DNA of 10,192 nt from contig NIRF01000024.1 in NCBI GenBank assembly GCA_002878375.1, positions 1-10,192 of the forward strand, read 5' to 3'. A program made the position numbers and the translations under genes. The notes beneath the pieces were generated by a model that was given only the letters and a program-made list of their open reading frames with translations, ran no database searches and was not told where the DNA came from. Within the stretch, counting starts at the first letter, position 1. The number at the start of each line of letters is the position of its first letter. This DNA is from Dictyoglomus sp. NZ13-RE01 (GTDB lineage Bacteria; Dictyoglomota; Dictyoglomia; Dictyoglomales; Dictyoglomaceae). Of this stretch, positions 2,536-10,192 are shown piece after piece.

Positions 2536-3498
2536 ATGCTGTATCCTATAGATTCTGCAGGAATAATACTAACTTATAAATGTTCATCAAGATGTAAGCA
2601 TTGTCTTTATGCAAGTGGGCCAGAATGGACCGATTTTATAAGTAAAGAGTATTTGGATATCCTTCTTCAAGGGATTAAAAAAATTTGGAAAGATTACATA
2701 CCTCCAAGAAATAAGAATATTCTTTTTCATGGAATTCACTTTGCAGGGGGAGAGCCCTTCTTGAATTTTCCCCTACTTCTTTATGCAGTAAAGAGAGCCC
2801 ATGAGCTTGGTGTATATATGGGTTATGTTGAGACAAATGCAAGCTGGTGTATAGATAAAAATGATGTTTATGAAAAGTTTTCCCTATTAAAATCTGAAGG
2901 GCTCCCCAAGATATTTATTAGCTGTTCTCCCTTTCATGCGGAGAAAATTCCCTTGAAGAGAACTCTCCTTGCTATTGAGGTTGCCATAGAAGTGTTTGGC
3001 CCTAAGAATGTAATTGTCTATATGGATCATTTTATAAAAGAGCTTGCAAAGATAGATATAGAAAATCCAATTCCATTAGAGAAATGGGTAGAACTATATG
3101 GCAAAGCTGGAGCTGGATATATATTTTGGGAGGGATATGCCCTAATTCCAGGAGGAAGGTCAGGCTTTTATTTAGGGCACCTATTCAAGAGATATCCTGC
3201 AGAGGTTTTTAGAGAAGAAAATTGCAGATTTGAGATCTTAGAATCTCAGCATGCCCATTTTGATTTATATGGAAATTACATACCATATTTTTGTGGAGGT
3301 CTTTCCTTGGGTAAGATAAAGGATTTAGAAGAGTTTTACAATAATTTTGATCTGGAAAAACTCCCCCTTGTAGAAATCCTTGTGGAAAAGGGTCCCTATG
3401 GGCTTATGAAGTATGCAGAAAAGTTTGGTTTTAAAAAAACAAGAAGGATATGTGGGGAAATGCCACCTTTGTGTAGATGTAAGAAGATTTTTAAATGA
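2536..3498 (+). CDS. Radical SAM enzyme with C-terminal auxiliary-cluster cysteines (function unknown)
   Basis: A 320-residue radical SAM protein. The S-adenosylmethionine-binding [4Fe-4S] motif CxxxCxxC is at Cys16, Cys20 and Cys23, following a typical first strand (GIILTYKCSSRC). The SAM-contacting Gly-Gly-Glu motif (AGGEP) is at residues 70-74, and a barrel-like region continues to about residue 200. The C-terminal part holds Cys230, Cys253, Cys306, Cys313 and Cys315, with HFDLYGNYIPYFC around residues 241-253. This is reminiscent of a SPASM or shorter Twitch domain carrying an auxiliary iron-sulfur cluster, though spacing does not match the canonical SPASM pattern exactly. Such enzymes often modify peptides or anaerobically mature other enzymes, but no precursor peptide or partner gene is adjacent, so I assign no substrate. 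The start follows AAAGGGGGAAAGT, a good ribosome binding site. It appears to be a single-gene transcript ending at the hairpin at 3596-3621. Confidence 0.88.
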   Translation: MLYPIDSAGIILTYKCSSRCKHCLYASGPEWTDFISKEYLDILLQGIKKIWKDYIPPRNKNILFHGIHFAGGEPFLNFPLLLYAVKRAHELGVYMGYVETNASWCIDKNDVYEKFSLLKSEGLPKIFISCSPFHAEKIPLKRTLLAIEVAIEVFGPKNVIVYMDHFIKELAKIDIENPIPLEKWVELYGKAGAGYIFWEGYALIPGGRSGFYLGHLFKRYPAEVFREENCRFEILESQHAHFDLYGNYIPYFCGGLSLGKIKDLEEFYNNFDLEKLPLVEILVEKGPYGLMKYAEKFGFKKTRRICGEMPPLCRCKKIFK

Positions 3499-3595: not shown

Positions 3596-3621
3596 TAGGA
3601 GGCGAAATAAATCGCCTCCTA
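3596..3621. terminator. Bidirectional terminator hairpin between convergent transcripts
   Basis: TAGGAGGCG (3596-3604) and CGCCTCCTA (3613-3621) form a perfect 9-bp, GC-rich stem with an 8-base AT loop. On the plus strand it is followed by TACTTTCTTTAT, and on the minus strand by ATCTTTTAAAG. Both tails are moderately U-rich, as for intrinsic terminators serving the radical SAM gene from one side and the sugar operon from the other. The GH65 stop codon TAG is itself the first three bases of the stem on the minus strand, so a ribosome pausing at the stop would cover the upstream arm. Confidence 0.8.
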
Positions 3622-5694
3622 TACTTTCTTTATATTAAGCTCTAAGATATTTCCTTTATAGTGTAAATTCATTTTCAATTTTTTCCAATTGTTGGGGAGT
3701 TTAGGATCAAATCTTAAACCTTTCTCGTCTACTCTTATCCCCAAGAATCCAAAAACTATGGATTCCCATGTCCCACCTATTGCTGCAGCATGTAAACCAA
3801 GTTTTGTATTTCCCATTAAATCTGATAAATCCATTTCTGATGTTTTTTTGAAATATTCATATGCTAACTCTGTAAGCCCTAATCGGGCTGATACCACAGC
3901 ATGCATAGATGGTGAAAGAGAAGAAGAATGGACTGTCAAAGGTTCATAATATTTAAAATTTATTATCTTTTGATCTGTGGGGAAATCATCATAAAAGAGG
4001 AAAAATAGAGCAATTACATCCGCCTGCTTTATTACTTTACTCTTTACTACTCCACTATGTCCTAATATGGCATCTGCTGGCTTCCCACTTTTCTTTATCT
4101 CTTCCACGTCTACTTCTTCTAATTTGTTAAACCCTTCAAATTGCTCTATAAACTTTCCTTGTGATGGGAGATATATCTTTTCCGCAACCTCCTCCCACAT
4201 TCTTCTTTCTTCTTCCCTAAATTTTATTCTCTCTTTTATATCCTTTGCTTTCTCAGGATCTTTTACTTCTACAAGCTCTAAAACTTCTTTCGCCTTTAAT
4301 AGATTCCATCTCGCAAGATAATTTGTGTAATAATTGTTATCTACTTCTTCATGAAATTCATCAGGTCCTATCACTTTTAATATCTCATATGTGTCCCTCA
4401 AAGAATTGTATCTTGCCCTGGAAACCCAATATCTCGCACTCTCTATAAACATTTCTACTCCATAGTCAAAAAGAAATTTTTCATCGCCTGTAACTAAGTA
4501 ATATTGCCAAAATGCCCACATTACATCTCCTGTAATGTGAATCTCTTGCTCTCCTGTAAGTATTCTTACTTTCTCTCCTGTTTTTGCATCCTTTCCCCAC
4601 TTTGGTGTCTCCTCTTCCCCTGTGTCCGCACTCTCCCATGCTATACTGATCCCCTCATATCCTTCTTCCTTTGCTTTTTTTCTATATCCTTCTATGCAAT
4701 GATATCTATAAAGAAGAAGATTTCTTGCTATCTCTGGAAATGTATATAAAAAGAAGGGAAAAACAAAAATTTCATTATCCCAAAAGATATGCCCTTTGTA
4801 TCCTTCCCCACTTAATGCCTTTGCAGGTATACTCACTTTAGAAGAATGCCATGGTGCCATCTGCAAAAGTTGAAATATGGCATATCTTATATTCCTCTGG
4901 GAGATATCATCCCCTTCTATCTCTATATCCGCTCTATTCCACAAAGCTTTCCACTTTTCTTTATGTTTCTCCTCTATCTCTACATCTTTTTCTATCCTCT
5001 TTAATCTTTCTAAGGGATTTTCTCCATCTATTCTGTTTTCTGTTACCCATATGTATTTCTTTAATCTTGCTTTCTTACCTCTTTCTAAATAGGTGTGAAA
5101 AATTTTCCCAATTTTCCTCTCCTCTAATATCAAAGATTCCTCATTAAAATTTTCTCCTTCATGTTCTAAACGAAAGCCTATTTCAATATTTGATTCCTTC
5201 GTCTTCAAAATCAAAAATTTTTCATCTTGATATATATTAATAAGATGGTCATATCCAATCTTTCTTTCTGTATTTATCAATGAATCAAGCTCTATTTCTA
5301 CATTTTCCTTTGCAGTGATCTCTATTTCCCAAAGTAAAAGATTTTTATCTGCCATTGATGCAAACCTTCTTGTAATTACTTCTACCTTCTCATTAGAAAC
5401 GTATCTTTCCAAAATTCCATTTTCTAAATGAAGAACCCTTTTGTATTCATTAAAAGAAAGGGGCTTTTTATCTATATATAGATTTGCTTCAAAGGGATTC
5501 CCAAGATTTACTAATTCTGTAACATCTTCAGGTGGTCTATTGTAAACCCCATTGATAAATAGACCAACCTCTTCCTGGTTCCAGCTTTCTTCCTCTACCC
5601 CTCTTACTCCTAAATATCCATTCCCTAAGGTGAATACTGTCTCCCATTTTCCTATATCTTTTCTATTAAAACTTTCCTGCACTATTTCCCACAT
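3619..5694 (-). CDS. Glycoside hydrolase family 65 disaccharide phosphorylase (kojibiose/trehalose/maltose phosphorylase family)
   Basis: This 691-residue protein spans the full GH65 fold, slightly shorter than the usual 750-780. The N-terminal beta-sandwich begins with ETVFTLGNGYLGVRG (residues 18-32). The (alpha/alpha)6 catalytic barrel has SGEGYKGHIFWDNEIF (295-310), AWESADTGEE (352-361) and IGPDEFHEEVDNNYYTN (442-458), where Glu446 should be the general acid. KQADV (556-560) and the serine-rich HSSSLS (589-594) match the phosphate-binding segments of GH65 phosphorylases, which argues for phosphorolysis rather than hydrolysis. The family inverts the linkage and releases beta-D-glucose 1-phosphate in the cytoplasm. 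AWESADTGEE reminds me more of kojibiose-type members than of maltose phosphorylase, but the exact disaccharide cannot be settled by eye. There is no signal peptide. It is the last gene of the operon and overlaps the HAD gene by 29 bases. Confidence 0.92.
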   Translation of the reverse strand: MWEIVQESFNRKDIGKWETVFTLGNGYLGVRGVEEESWNQEEVGLFINGVYNRPPEDVTELVNLGNPFEANLYIDKKPLSFNEYKRVLHLENGILERYVSNEKVEVITRRFASMADKNLLLWEIEITAKENVEIELDSLINTERKIGYDHLINIYQDEKFLILKTKESNIEIGFRLEHEGENFNEESLILEERKIGKIFHTYLERGKKARLKKYIWVTENRIDGENPLERLKRIEKDVEIEEKHKEKWKALWNRADIEIEGDDISQRNIRYAIFQLLQMAPWHSSKVSIPAKALSGEGYKGHIFWDNEIFVFPFFLYTFPEIARNLLLYRYHCIEGYRKKAKEEGYEGISIAWESADTGEEETPKWGKDAKTGEKVRILTGEQEIHITGDVMWAFWQYYLVTGDEKFLFDYGVEMFIESARYWVSRARYNSLRDTYEILKVIGPDEFHEEVDNNYYTNYLARWNLLKAKEVLELVEVKDPEKAKDIKERIKFREEERRMWEEVAEKIYLPSQGKFIEQFEGFNKLEEVDVEEIKKSGKPADAILGHSGVVKSKVIKQADVIALFFLFYDDFPTDQKIINFKYYEPLTVHSSSLSPSMHAVVSARLGLTELAYEYFKKTSEMDLSDLMGNTKLGLHAAAIGGTWESIVFGFLGIRVDEKGLRFDPKLPNNWKKLKMNLHYKGNILELNIKKV

Positions 5695-6586
5695 TGTTGA
5701 GCTCTCCCTCCTTCTTTATAACTTCCCATAATATTTCTACAAATTTTTCTGGTCCTCCACCTATATGAATAACTTCTTTTGGTACTCCATTAGGTTCCTT
5801 TCCAACAGATATAAAAGTAGCTCCTTTAGTATATTTATTGAGCATTAAATAATCGCTACCATCTACTTCTCCTATTGGTCCAAATTCATCTCCTAATATT
5901 AACATTTCTTCAGGTAATACCCCTAATTTTTCCCTAACAAATTTTGTGGAATCAGATTTATCGGTAAGTCCTACCTCAATATGTTTCACATCACTAGTAA
6001 TCCTTGGATCCTTTAGACCAATTTCAAAGGAAATTTCCTTAGTTCTCTTAATAAGATAGCTTAAAGAGGGAACATTATGGTCCTTTAATCTTTTATTTAC
6101 TGCTATAAGAAGCTCATCGATTTTTGATTTTGGTGGATCTGCCCATTCTGGAAGAGGGATTAAATCTATTTTTCTTCTATTTAATCTGTTGTAGATTATA
6201 TCTACATCCAAATTATATTTTATCTTTACTTCATTTTTAAAAGTTTCAGCAATTCTATTTAGTTTATCTTCCTCTTCAGAAGTTGCAACTCTTCTTTCCA
6301 AAGTAATAAAATCTCCATCTTTCCATTGAAAAACCTCAGAGCCTCTATTAGTACAGAAATATAAATTATAAGCTAAATCTCTATCCAGCCAAGGACCAAC
6401 TTGTCTCCATACATTATTTATATTAGTCCCCGTAATAATGACAATTTTAATACCTAATTTTAATAATTGATGAAAGGGTTCCTTTAAATACTCAGCAGAA
6501 GAAAAACGATCTGGCACAGCAGTGCCATCCCAATCAAAAATTATAGCCTTAAATCTTTTTTTAGATAGTAGTTCTATCATATGCAT
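5666..6586 (-). CDS. HAD-superfamily sugar-phosphatase-like hydrolase (C2-type cap)
   Basis: A 306-residue cytoplasmic HAD enzyme. Motif I is FDWDGT (17-22), with Asp18 as the expected nucleophile and Asp20 as acid/base, the arrangement of phosphatases and phosphomutases. Motif II is VIITGTN with Thr52. A large cap lies between motifs II and III (about 85-190), placing it with the Cof, phosphomannomutase and trehalose-6-phosphate phosphatase group. Motif III is probably Lys215 (or Lys210), and motif IV is LGDEFGPIGEVDGSD (231-245). This cap position and the length differ from beta-phosphoglucomutase, which is about 220 residues with its cap between motifs I and II. A phosphatase acting on a sugar phosphate made or used by the neighbouring GH65 phosphorylase is my inference. 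The start at 6586 has GGGGG seven bases upstream; the ATG two codons later is less well placed. The gene begins 39 bases after the permease stop, and its 3' end overlaps GH65 by 29 bases. Confidence 0.82.
   Translation of the reverse strand: MHMIELLSKKRFKAIIFDWDGTAVPDRFSSAEYLKEPFHQLLKLGIKIVIITGTNINNVWRQVGPWLDRDLAYNLYFCTNRGSEVFQWKDGDFITLERRVATSEEEDKLNRIAETFKNEVKIKYNLDVDIIYNRLNRRKIDLIPLPEWADPPKSKIDELLIAVNKRLKDHNVPSLSYLIKRTKEISFEIGLKDPRITSDVKHIEVGLTDKSDSTKFVREKLGVLPEEMLILGDEFGPIGEVDGSDYLMLNKYTKGATFISVGKEPNGVPKEVIHIGGGPEKFVEILWEVIKKEGELNNVGNSAGKF
5704..5713 (-). promoter_or_regulatory. Ribosome binding site of GH65, inside the HAD gene
   Basis: On the minus strand AAGGAGGGAG lies nine bases before the GH65 ATG (5692-5694) and inside the HAD coding sequence. 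It supports this ATG, and with it the 29-base overlap. The arrangement suggests translational coupling of the two enzymes. Confidence 0.72.
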
Positions 6587-6625: not shown

Positions 6626-7459
6626 CTACCCTCTAAGACCTGTAGTTACTATACCTTCTAAGAAAGCTCGCTGAGCTAAGAAAAAGATTATTATACATGG
6701 TAAGATGGAAATAAGAGTTGCGGCAGATAAAAGATTTGTATATCTAAAATATAGATTTTTATATGAAAGAAGAGCTAAAGAAAGAGTATACTTTTCTGTA
6801 CTGGAAATATAAATGAGAGGACCCAAAAGGTCATTCCAATGTCCTAAGAAAGAAAATACCGCAACTGTTGTAAGAGCAGGGCGAGAAAGAGGGAGAATGA
6901 TTTGCCACCAAACTCTAAAAGAAGATGCTCCATCTATATACGCTGCATCTACCAAATCTCTCGGAATTGTGAGAAAAAATTGTCTTAGTAAAAAGATAAA
7001 AAAAGCTGACCCAAAGAAAGATGGAACAAAAAGAGGTTTAAAAGTATTTATCCATCCTAAAAAATAAAAAATTCTATAAATTGGGATCATAGTTACTTCT
7101 CCAGGAAGCATCATTGTAGAAAGAACCAGTAAAAATATTAAATCTCTACCTTTAAATCTTAAAAAGGAAAAGCCAAAGGCTACCAACGAACTAGATAATA
7201 ATGTTCCTAAAACTCCCATAAAGGTTACAAAAGAAGTATTCAATAAATAACGAAAGAAAGGTTGTTGAGTAAATACCTCTATATATGCCTCTAAAGTAAA
7301 AGGATTAGGAATCCATATATCTCTTGCTGTATCTTCAAGTCTCATAAAAGATCGAGAAATTAGCCATGCTACAGGGAAAAGGACAAGAATTGCTCCTGCT
7401 GTAAGAATAGCATAGATAATTAACCTTGTAAGAAATTTCTTAAAAAATTTTAAATACAT
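6626..7459 (-). CDS. ABC sugar transporter permease, MalG/UgpE type
   Basis: This 277-residue inner-membrane protein has about six hydrophobic helices, starting near residues 12-34 and including 72-98, 107-130, 143-163 and 244-262. The cytoplasmic EAA loop, which contacts the ATPase, is VDAAYIDGASSFRVWWQIILPLSRP (written here in two parts: VDAAYIDGASS at 170-180 and IILPLSRP at 187-194). The short N-terminus before the first helix is typical of the second permease of CUT1 carbohydrate importers. It should form a heterodimer with the permease encoded just upstream. The ATG is preceded by GGAAGGTGGTTAA, and the gene starts 13 bases after the stop of the first permease, so the two are tightly coupled. 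The substrate cannot be read from the sequence; context suggests an oligosaccharide. Confidence 0.93.
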   Translation of the reverse strand: MYLKFFKKFLTRLIIYAILTAGAILVLFPVAWLISRSFMRLEDTARDIWIPNPFTLEAYIEVFTQQPFFRYLLNTSFVTFMGVLGTLLSSSLVAFGFSFLRFKGRDLIFLLVLSTMMLPGEVTMIPIYRIFYFLGWINTFKPLFVPSFFGSAFFIFLLRQFFLTIPRDLVDAAYIDGASSFRVWWQIILPLSRPALTTVAVFSFLGHWNDLLGPLIYISSTEKYTLSLALLSYKNLYFRYTNLLSAATLISILPCIIIFFLAQRAFLEGIVTTGLRG

Positions 7460-7472
7460 TTAACCACCTTCC

Positions 7473-8372
7473 TCATTTCTTAAGTTCTGTTTCATAATAA
7501 ACCCATAAAGGAGAAGATTTAAATATTAAAAGAGTAATTAATAAAATTATAATAAAAAGAATCCAAGCAAGAGCGGAAGCATATCCCATTTTAAAATCTA
7601 CAAAAGCATTAACATAAAGATATAGTACATAAAATAAAGCGGAATTTTGGGGACCTCCTTGAGAACCAAACATGAAATATGCTGGAGAAAATACCTTAAG
7701 AGAACCAATTACAGCCATCACAAAGTTAAAAAATATCACTGGAGAAATCATAGGTAAAGTTATGTATATAAAACGTTTAAAAGGACCTGCTCCATCTATT
7801 TCCGCTGATTCGTATAATTCCTTAGGAACTCCTTGTAAAGCTGCTAAAAATATTACCATGGCTCCTCCTACTCCCCAAATACTCATTAGGACCAATGCTG
7901 GAATAACCCATTTAGGATCTAAAAGCCAGGCAGGTCCAGAAATTCCAAACCAGCTTAAGATACGATTAATAAGTCCAGTGGTAGGATTTAGAAGCATCAT
8001 CCATAACAGAGCCACAGAAGCTCCTGAAACAACTGTAGGAAGATAATAAATAGTCCTATATATTTGCTGTCCTTTTATTTTTTGGTTTAAAAGAACAGCA
8101 AGAATAAGAGCCACTGTTATCTGACTTGGAACAGCTAAAATTGTAAAATAAAAAGAATTTCTTAATGATTTATAAAATAAAGGATCTTTAAAAATATCTC
8201 GATAATTTTGAAAGCCTATCCATTCTGGAGTTGTAAAAACATTCCATTTTGTAAAGGAATAAAATAAAGAAGCCACCATAGGACCAAGAGTAAAAACAAA
8301 AAAGCCAATTATCCAAGGAGAAATGAAAAGATAACCCTCTATATTCTTTAATATTTTTTTAAACATACTCAT
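7473..8372 (-). CDS. ABC sugar transporter permease, MalF/UgpA type
   Basis: This 299-residue inner-membrane permease of the CUT1 carbohydrate importer class has six predicted helices, the first at about residues 13-38 and others near 72-97, 106-128, 155-178, 212-230 and 263-285. The EAA loop reads YESAEIDGAGPF (187-198) and YITLPMISP (203-211), the site that contacts the ATPase. It starts MSM, and two ATGs are possible. The weak AAAGAG motif directly abuts the first ATG (8372) but lies six bases before the second (8366), so translation more likely begins at 8366, giving 297 residues. It follows the binding-protein gene after 48 bases that hold a strong hairpin and precedes the second permease by 13 bases. 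The weak ribosome binding site and the hairpin both suggest lower expression than the binding protein. Confidence 0.93.
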   Translation of the reverse strand: MSMFKKILKNIEGYLFISPWIIGFFVFTLGPMVASLFYSFTKWNVFTTPEWIGFQNYRDIFKDPLFYKSLRNSFYFTILAVPSQITVALILAVLLNQKIKGQQIYRTIYYLPTVVSGASVALLWMMLLNPTTGLINRILSWFGISGPAWLLDPKWVIPALVLMSIWGVGGAMVIFLAALQGVPKELYESAEIDGAGPFKRFIYITLPMISPVIFFNFVMAVIGSLKVFSPAYFMFGSQGGPQNSALFYVLYLYVNAFVDFKMGYASALAWILFIIILLITLLIFKSSPLWVYYETELKK

Positions 8373-8420: not shown

Positions 8421-9668
8421 TTATTCCCCTCCTTTTAAAATTTTATTAATTTTCTCACATGCCTCTTTAAGGGCTACTTCTGGAGATTTTGGATTGAAGC
8501 TTGTTAAGACCGAATCTCTAAGTTCATCTAAGACTCTTCCAATAGCACGACTATCAGGAGACTTAAATTGAGGTTCTTGTAAGTCTATGGCTTTAATAAA
8601 TAATTCTGCACCAGGGAATTGCTTTGCAAATAAACTTCCTGAACGTTTACTCCCTGGTATTTGTGTCTTTGTTAGAGCTAAAATATCTTGTGCTCTTGGA
8701 TCTGCAGTAAGGAAGGTTATAGCTGTAAAAGCTGCTTCAGGGTTGGGTGCCTTTGCAGGAATAGCTAATCCTACCACCTCCATTTCTCCTGAACCACCAA
8801 AATTTCCTTTACCTGGCTGTAATGCAAGTCCCCACTTAAATTTTGTAATCTTTGTAAGAATAGGCATGAAGTAAGGACCTACATCACAGAACATAGCTAC
8901 CTTTTCTGCCATAAACATATCAATAGGTCCCATACCTCCTGTTTCTTCTGGTTTTGGCGCAGCCCCGTGTACCCATACTAAGTCATATACATATTTCAGA
9001 GATTCTAAAGCTTCAGGTCTATTTAACATACACCTCTTACCTTCTCTATCTAATACTCTTCCTCCAAATTGATATAACCATTGATTCCACCAAGGAAATC
9101 CTGAACCCCATCTCTTTCCAGGTATGGTTAATTTTTTTGCATTTGCAAGATATTCTTCAGGTGTCCAAGCTTTTCCAGGAGAAGGAGGTTGTATTCCTGC
9201 CTCATTTAACATATCAAGATTATATGCCATTAATTTTGTATTCATACGGAAGGGTAAACCATATAATTTTTTATCCCAGTACATAGCATCTAAAGCCTTT
9301 CTATAATAAGCAGCGGTATTTATACGAGAAATATAGTTATCCAAAGAACTCAATGCACCCCTCGCTGCAAAAGCAGGAATATGAGCTCCTCCTATAGCTA
9401 TAATATCAGGAACATCCCCTGCTCCAATCATGGTTAAGACTTTTTCCTCATACATATCTGGAATGTGTACTGGAATAACTTCAATTTCATTTTGGGAATC
9501 ATTAAAGGCTTTAATCATTGCTTCATAAGCTGTTTTTTCCTCTTTACCACCCCAGAAAGTAAAACGAATTTGGACCTTTGAAGATGCCCCAAATCCTTGT
9601 GTTAGAAGAAATAGGGCAAGAAAGAATAAAGTGAACCCCTTAAGAAGAAAATTTTTTGTTCGCCACAT
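8421..9668 (-). CDS. Periplasmic sugar-binding protein of an ABC importer (SBP family 1, MalE-like)
   Basis: A 415-residue extracellular solute-binding protein. The N-terminus has basic residues (MWRTKNFLLK) and a hydrophobic core (residues 11-24), with cleavage expected around residues 25-30 (GFGASSK). No lipobox cysteine is present, so it should be a soluble periplasmic protein rather than a lipoprotein, which suits a diderm cell. The mature chain opens with IRFTFWGGKEEKTAYEAMIKAFN and continues with VLTMIGAGDVPDIIAIGG, both typical of family 1 sugar-binding proteins. The length is normal. AGGAGGTGAAAGT precedes the ATG, an excellent ribosome binding site. It is the first gene of the operon behind the 9741-9769 promoter. 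The ligand is probably an oligosaccharide cleaved by the GH65 enzyme downstream, by inference. The ATPase gene is not in the window. Confidence 0.94.
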   Translation of the reverse strand: MWRTKNFLLKGFTLFFLALFLLTQGFGASSKVQIRFTFWGGKEEKTAYEAMIKAFNDSQNEIEVIPVHIPDMYEEKVLTMIGAGDVPDIIAIGGAHIPAFAARGALSSLDNYISRINTAAYYRKALDAMYWDKKLYGLPFRMNTKLMAYNLDMLNEAGIQPPSPGKAWTPEEYLANAKKLTIPGKRWGSGFPWWNQWLYQFGGRVLDREGKRCMLNRPEALESLKYVYDLVWVHGAAPKPEETGGMGPIDMFMAEKVAMFCDVGPYFMPILTKITKFKWGLALQPGKGNFGGSGEMEVVGLAIPAKAPNPEAAFTAITFLTADPRAQDILALTKTQIPGSKRSGSLFAKQFPGAELFIKAIDLQEPQFKSPDSRAIGRVLDELRDSVLTSFNPKSPEVALKEACEKINKILKGGE

Positions 9669-9720: not shown

Positions 9721-9732
9721 GCGAACGTTCGC
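9721..9732. promoter_or_regulatory. Putative LacI-family operator of the sugar operon
   Basis: GCGAACGTTCGC is a perfect 12-bp palindrome with a central CpG, the form typical of LacI/GalR-family operators (compare the RbsR and PurR sites, which share a GC-rich arm and a central ACGT). It lies about +2 to +13 relative to the predicted start of transcription near 9734, an ideal position for repression. GC-rich DNA within an otherwise AT-rich leader makes it stand out. No regulator gene is present in the window, so the protein that binds is unknown. Confidence 0.65.
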
Positions 9733-9740
9733 TCATATAT

Positions 9741-9769
9741 AAAATATCCTATCCCAAACTTTTTGTCAA
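9741..9769 (-). promoter_or_regulatory. Sigma-A-type promoter of the ABC-HAD-GH65 operon
   Basis: On the minus strand a perfect TTGACA (9764-9769) is followed after exactly 17 bases by TATTTT (9741-9746). The predicted start is near 9734, giving a leader of about 65 bases before the ATG at 9668. This leader includes the operator palindrome and the small stem-loop. No other convincing promoter is seen inside the operon. Confidence 0.75.
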
Positions 9770-9811
9770 GAGTTCTTTTAACTGTCCTGTAATCATTTTT
9801 TGAAAAGAAAA

Positions 9812-9866
9812 ACCTCCCAGGGTTAGAATTAGATTAGAAAGATATCATATCCCAACCCCGGGAGGT
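9812..9866. repeat. Inverted repeat next to the transposase remnant, with ribosome binding site in one arm
   Basis: ACCTCCCAGGGTT (9812-9824) and AACCCCGGGAGGT (9854-9866) pair over 13 positions with one mismatch, leaving a 29-base loop. On the plus strand the second arm contains GGGAGGTGA, a strong ribosome binding site, seven to nine bases before where the transposase reading frame would be expected to start. Hiding the ribosome binding site of a transposase in a hairpin is a known way for insertion sequences to stay silent when transcribed from outside. It might instead lie near the element's terminal inverted repeat. Confidence 0.55.
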
Positions 9867-9883
9867 GAAAACTATAGTCATAG

Positions 9884-10192
9884 CAAGCTTTATCTTTAAA
9901 CCTTGTTAATCCCATTAAATACTCCTCTACTCAAGCTTTGGTAAATAGATTTAGAAGATTTTTTACATATCTAATTGATTGAAAGTATCTCTTTACTTCT
10001 TCCATTAATTCCAAAAGGGACAGTTTTTATCTTTGATAGAGAATTTACATATAGAAGACTGATGGAATTTCTAAAAGATAAAGGGATGAATTTTGTTATC
10101 AGGTTAAAGAAGAATGTTTATGTAAACGAGAAGCTAATAACCATGTTGCCAAAAGGGATTTATGAAGGAGTTCTAATTCATGGGATAGTAGC
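9884..10192 (+). pseudogene. Decayed IS4-like DDE transposase, interrupted and cut by the window edge
   Basis: Two pieces in different frames are seen. From 9884 to a TGA at 9980-9982 one frame reads NPIKYSSTQALVNRFRRFFTYLI, like a transposase N-terminus but without an ATG. From 9975 (after TAA at 9972-9974) another frame reads SLLLPLIPKGTVFIFDREFTYRRL and continues VIRLKKN to the right edge. The FDREF segment, followed by FVIRLKK about 20 residues on, matches the second catalytic aspartate region of IS4-family DDE transposases. In an intact protein more than 100 residues, including the first catalytic aspartate, would separate the two pieces, so an internal deletion is likely. A bad start (ATA at 9874 where an ATG would fit the ribosome binding site) adds to the decay. 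The C-terminal part continues beyond the window. Confidence 0.72.

Follow-up and report, generated by a model that had tools for sequence, protein, structure and literature searches.

A GH65 phosphorylase gene coupled to a C2-cap HAD gene in Dictyoglomus and the possible replacement of β-phosphoglucomutase

In Dictyoglomus sp. NZ13-RE01, the gene for a GH65 α-glucoside phosphorylase overlaps the gene for a HAD enzyme with a C2 cap, and the canonical β-phosphoglucomutase (bPGM), a model enzyme for phosphoryl transfer on which GH65 phosphorolysis is thought to depend, appears from sequence searches to be encoded neither in the operon nor elsewhere in the genome, which is 99.99% complete. The best overall explanation, to which we give a probability of about 0.6, is that the operon would import an α-glucobiose, most likely kojibiose or a short α-1,2-glucan, that the GH65 enzyme would phosphorolyse the disaccharide to glucose and β-glucose 1-phosphate (β-G1P), and that the translationally coupled HAD enzyme would take the β-G1P in place of bPGM. 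The HAD enzyme most likely replaces bPGM, and the pair may represent an alternative use of β-G1P; the parts are known and their combination is new. If this is true, the HAD enzyme is either a second, independently evolved bPGM or one step of a phosphorolysis-then-dephosphorylation route of puzzling logic, and a thermophilic bPGM substitute would serve cell-free sugar conversion.

Organization of the operon and its contig

The window, the whole stretch of DNA analysed, is one entire contig of 10,192 bp (NIRF01000024.1; contig C24 of genome G000) from a 1.93 Mb genome. The Dictyoglomus group consists of heat-loving bacteria, and the Dictyoglomota comparison set comprised seven genomes, that of the window included; two of these, each a single contig (G003 and G004), we take to be D. 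thermophilum and D. turgidum. Membership of the contig in this genome follows from its radical SAM gene (2536-3498), whose protein shares 82-87% identity with the D. thermophilum and D. turgidum counterparts, and from its ends, which are repeats common to many other contigs of the assembly. As these repeats (1-219 and 9782-10192) recur at many contig ends and the right-hand copy (9782-10192) resembles transposase coding sequence, copies of an insertion sequence probably flank the contig on both sides. DNA similarity of 75-79% identifies the radical SAM gene in four of the other six Dictyoglomota, the exceptions being the two fragmentary genomes; its neighbour in D. thermophilum and D. turgidum is a phosphoribosyltransferase-like gene, not the GH65/HAD operon. 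Divergent from it in the window, positions 233-2259 encode a TPR-repeat protein and a CsgG-like lipoprotein with a C-terminal TPR. An intergenic repeat of ~80-120 bp at 2368-2487 recurs with 74-87% similarity, both at several further sites of this genome and in the genomes of other Dictyoglomota; an Rfam search of the window, this repeat included, gave no match.

The operon and its putative signals, from promoter to terminator, are:

9741..9769, minus strand: sigma-70-type promoter TTGACA-17-TATTTT before the operon (10/12 matches)
9721..9732, no strand assigned: perfect palindrome GCGAACGTTCGC, putative LacI-family-type operator (1 match against 0 expected, 200 shuffles)
8421..9668, minus strand: sugar ABC transporter substrate-binding protein (PF01547, PF13416)
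7473..8372, minus strand: sugar ABC transporter permease, MalF/UgpA type (PF00528; NCBIfam UgpA 123 bits, under cut-off)
6626..7459, minus strand: sugar ABC transporter permease, MalG/UgpE type (PF00528; NCBIfam UgpE 119 bits, under cut-off)
5666..6586, minus strand: C2-cap HAD enzyme, 306 aa (ORF, PF08282, predicted model, fold matches, relative beside another GH65)
5666..5694, minus strand: 29-nt overlap of the HAD and GH65 genes (ORF coordinates)
3619..5694, minus strand: GH65 α-glucoside phosphorylase, 691 aa, with kojibiose-phosphorylase signature EEAP and WET (ORF, Pfam, motif)
3596..3621, minus strand: terminator-like hairpin with a 10-bp stem at the operon end (sequence scan)

Read along the minus strand, the order of promoter, palindrome, binding protein, two permeases, HAD, GH65 and hairpin makes up a five-gene unit that has neither an ATPase gene nor a bPGM gene and that reads as a catabolic sugar operon. 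The promoter scan overall gave no enrichment over shuffles, position being the main support for the sequence listed, and the palindrome resembles LacI-family operators. The first-pass annotation had placed a GH65 gene and a 306-residue HAD gene here, with a 29-base overlap and a ribosome-binding site inside the HAD gene; the ORFs agree exactly, and the site, AGGAGGGAG, lies just 5′ of the GH65 ATG. The E. coli ycjT-pgmB operon has a similar composition, with an ABC importer, a GH65 enzyme of signature EEAP and an adjacent HAD gene, but E. coli and nearly all of the relatives use a C1-cap bPGM, whereas the window HAD has a C2 cap and is unrelated in sequence.

The GH65 phosphorylase and its usual partner

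All three GH65 Pfam domains (N-terminal PF03636, catalytic PF03632 and C-terminal PF03633) match the 691-residue protein above cut-off, PF03632 with 388 bits, and its assignment to GH65 is certain on this sequence evidence. E446, the general acid, is invariant in the GH65 alignment, as are K556, H589, S591 and S592, conserved residues of the C-terminal half that are taken as the phosphate site. The protein is at most 43% identical to any sequence found, and its best PDB match is the Caldicellulosiruptor kojibiose phosphorylase CsKP (3wiq, 510 bits). De Beul et al. (PMC8537180) give the kojibiose phosphorylase pattern as EEAPxx, at CsKP positions 64, 392, 394, 402, 416 and 585, together with W391, E392 and T417, and DQGQDE as the trehalose-6-phosphate signature. 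The window protein has W353, E354 and T380 with E60, A356 and P364, which is EEAPLx plus WET and so the kojibiose pattern, the assignment of CsKP position 585 varying with the alignment, and DQGQDE is not present. EEAP also occurs in most of the GH65 relatives found, many of them uncharacterised, in which position 417 is C or S. The substrate is most likely kojibiose or a short α-1,2-glucan. Two ideas raised in the first-pass annotation, that the GH65 enzyme works in the synthetic direction and that the HAD enzyme removes phosphate from a phosphorylated disaccharide, fit poorly with an ABC importer, a LacI-type operator and a kojibiose rather than a trehalose-6-phosphate signature.

bPGM had been named as the common neighbour of GH65 genes, and this is borne out by 80 relatives of the GH65 gene, each taken with its flanks to a maximum of 10 kb; they are the best-ranked pattern matches and are rich in cyanobacteria and Chloroflexota. 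A bPGM-type HAD accompanies 65 of the 80, fused to the phosphorylase in 44, within 100 bp in 11 and within 5 kb in 10; none is visible for the other 15, in several cases because the contig stops. No protein like the window HAD is found around the 80 relatives, and a motif scan of the fetched flanks revealed no other nearby C2-type HAD. GH65 genes with no bPGM in the fetched flank were noted in cyanobacteria (L077, L080, L085, L091, L097 and L122) and in Chloroflexota (L105, L107, L116 and L127); for at least L077, L105, L116 and L127, a bPGM is encoded elsewhere in the genome.

In whole-genome searches, 20 of the 23 other genomes with GH65 encode a bPGM that scores above the curated cut-off. 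In the Dictyoglomus genome, where a search for bPGM outside the window had been proposed, the best match is partial, at 39 bits, and not above the cut-off, and in the Chloroflexota genome that has the second GH65-HAD pair (G518, below), the best is 99 bits against a cut-off of 189. The absence from these two genomes, set against presence in 20 of 23, gives a one-sided Fisher p of 0.033 for a small sample. D. thermophilum and D. turgidum have a bPGM-superfamily HAD (G003:C1:355809-356348 and G004:C1:465535-466074; 107-109 bits, under the cut-off) with no equivalent in the window genome, though both lack GH65.

Two C1 HADs in the window genome have weak bPGM-family scores of 34 and 32 bits, and they bear on the alternative that the window HAD acts on some other phosphate ester, such as glucose 6-phosphate, another sugar phosphate or a phosphorylated disaccharide, with an unrecognised C1 HAD handling the β-G1P. 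The known promiscuity of HAD phosphatases would allow such a role. Both C1 HADs are far under the bPGM cut-offs and score best as PpaX/phosphoglycolate phosphatase-like and REG-2-like proteins, which, together with the lack of the trehalose-6-phosphate signature in the GH65 enzyme (PMC8537180), makes this alternative unlikely. Use of β-G1P by the window HAD itself remains the preferred reading.

Family and fold of the HAD protein

In bPGM, the cap is of the C1 type and lies between motifs I and II. The motifs of the window HAD are D18/D20 (I), a region around T52 (II), K210 (III) and GDE at 232-234, followed further on by D245 (IV). In an AlphaFold2 model (pLDDT 80.9, pTM 0.81), built from a two-sequence alignment, the predicted cap lies between motif II, at the end of strand 47-52, and motif III, with K210 following strand 202-206, and so is of the C2 type; the model has no C1 insertion. 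The earlier reading of the cap from the letters alone is thus upheld, as is the view that the protein differs from bPGM. The bPGM models TIGR01990 and TIGR02009 gave no match at E≤0.001, and a structural search, which might have placed the protein with bPGM, had no bPGM structure among the 50 best fold matches, an absence that is in itself no proof. The match to PF08282 (HAD-IIB) is weakly above the gathering threshold (22.6 against 20.9 bits), and that to NCBIfam HAD-IIB (TIGR01484) is under the cut-off (30.7 against 41.8 bits). Sequence and predicted model together place the protein outside the bPGM family, in a different, C2-cap branch of the HAD superfamily.

The highest fold similarity of the model is to the IMP-specific 5′-nucleotidase ISN1 (Z 19.2 over 247 residues), but identity is only 13%, and ISN1 is a eukaryotic enzyme with a nucleotide substrate. 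Other matches are the atypical L. lactis α-phosphoglucomutase 4bnd (Z 16.9, 240 residues aligned), HADs of the Cof type (Z 16.5) and phosphomannomutases (Z ~14-15); the values for 4bnd and the phosphomannomutases fall where those of other C2 HADs do. With hhalign, the best profile match is to the Cof-type HAD-IIB sugar phosphatases such as YidA and YbiV, which also have a C2 cap (probability 95, full length), against 52 over residues 1-67 only for phosphomannomutase, represented by a yeast sequence that was compared with solved structures as a check. The window HAD differs from the Cof-type proteins, however, in its score under the NCBIfam HAD-IIB cut-off, in having GT rather than GR in motif II and in a longer motif IV loop. 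R27, nine residues past the nucleophile, lines up with an arginine of a phosphomannomutase, whereas the HAD-IIB phosphatases in the alignment have no arginine there. This residue and the predicted C2 cap are points of resemblance to 4bnd and eukaryotic phosphomannomutase; those enzymes, in contrast, handle α anomers, are not tied to GH65, are 15-18% identical to the window HAD and differ from it in length. Conservation of the three arginines in the phosphomannomutase cap is not clear, and no Pfam match to that family was obtained at E≤10. An attempt to place the protein in the phosphomannomutase family thus gave a compatible fold but no agreement of the sequence profile. Trehalose-6-phosphate phosphatase gave an hhalign probability of 3.6 (OtsB) and no Pfam match.

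As α-phosphoglucomutase does not use β-G1P (PMC10521662), the task of bPGM must be done somehow. One GH65 enzyme hydrolyses β-G1P itself, an activity that its authors consider possibly negligible in vivo (PMC3899277). The window HAD could be a bPGM from the C2-cap branch that converts β-G1P to glucose 6-phosphate, an independent invention unlike the known bPGM cap topology and present in at least two phyla; this is possible, and we put it forward tentatively. The fold match to 4bnd and the alignment of R27 with the phosphomannomutase arginine argue for it, and a mutase route would keep the phosphate-bond energy; the profile nearer to Cof-type HAD-IIB than to phosphomannomutase, and a phosphatase as the top fold match, argue against it. 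These last two observations, and the fact that most HAD-IIB enzymes are phosphatases, point instead to a β-G1P phosphatase, with phosphorolysis and then dephosphorylation yielding two glucose, a net hydrolysis pulled by phosphate loss. The genomic context supports this equally well. Such a route would nevertheless waste the phosphate-bond energy that a phosphorylase exists to conserve and achieve what a plain hydrolase would with a single gene, and R27 is shared with phosphomannomutase; we consider it rather unlikely. The mutase is slightly favoured over the phosphatase, the choice being beyond the reach of sequence. The different route that the first-pass annotation proposed stands in so far as the HAD enzyme has a C2 cap, is not of the bPGM family and has no canonical bPGM alongside it, but a C2 mutase route, as in 4bnd, is open equally with the phosphatase it envisaged.

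A second GH65-HAD pair and the origin of the operon

A search of about 590 other genomes with the HAD protein, including Thermotogota, the Thermoanaerobacter class and ~400 Anaerolineae, identified one clear relative, in a Chloroflexota genome (G518:C151; 33% identity over nearly the full length, E 2e-36), to which no Pfam model matched. This relative was found with the HAD query alone, and a GH65 gene directly adjoins it with a 53-nt overlap, in the order GH65 then HAD, the reverse of that in the window. The comparison of HAD neighbourhoods suggested at the outset thus places the pairing in a second phylum; there are two instances in all, this one from a fragmentary assembly, on a contig 4.1 kb long. 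In the Chloroflexota GH65, some ten residues ahead of the catalytic Glu are missing, and Gln replaces a His that is invariant in the other sequences. The protein also differs from the window GH65 in its specificity-position residues, which suggests that the pairs share the β-G1P product rather than the acceptor sugar. In the GH65 gene tree, the two are not sisters, and the window branch is too long (1.41) for the tree to distinguish one origin of the pairing from two.

The recurrence in a second phylum indicates, from sequence and gene order, that the pairing goes beyond a local coincidence. That a housekeeping HAD came by chance to lie in a sugar operon would be consistent with there being one further instance among the genomes scanned, but the only close relative found also adjoins and overlaps a GH65 gene, in opposite order, HAD and GH65 are translationally coupled in the window, and both genes are absent from the other six Dictyoglomota and were therefore gained or lost together. 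A chance neighbourhood is accordingly very improbable. With both genes absent from the other Dictyoglomota, and with the radical SAM gene having other neighbours in D. thermophilum and D. turgidum, the data fit acquisition of the operon by the window lineage, with loss elsewhere as the alternative; the G+C content (0.31-0.38) is not distinctive.

Single-protein scans of genome contigs, viral contigs and plasmids gave no HAD relative, nor did whole-genome scans of the other Dictyoglomota, 36 GH65-bearing genomes and 37 Thermoanaerobacter-class genomes. Three of four weak Thermotogota matches and a weak match in a further Chloroflexota genome (G495) are generic HADs located away from GH65. The GH65 query also gave a second match on C10, a glycoside phosphorylase of another kind that aligned at its C-terminal end only and was read as GH94-like. 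Next to the Chloroflexota GH65-HAD pair, positions 2495-3514 of L140 encode part of a deoxyribose-phosphate aldolase as well as a glucuronate isomerase.
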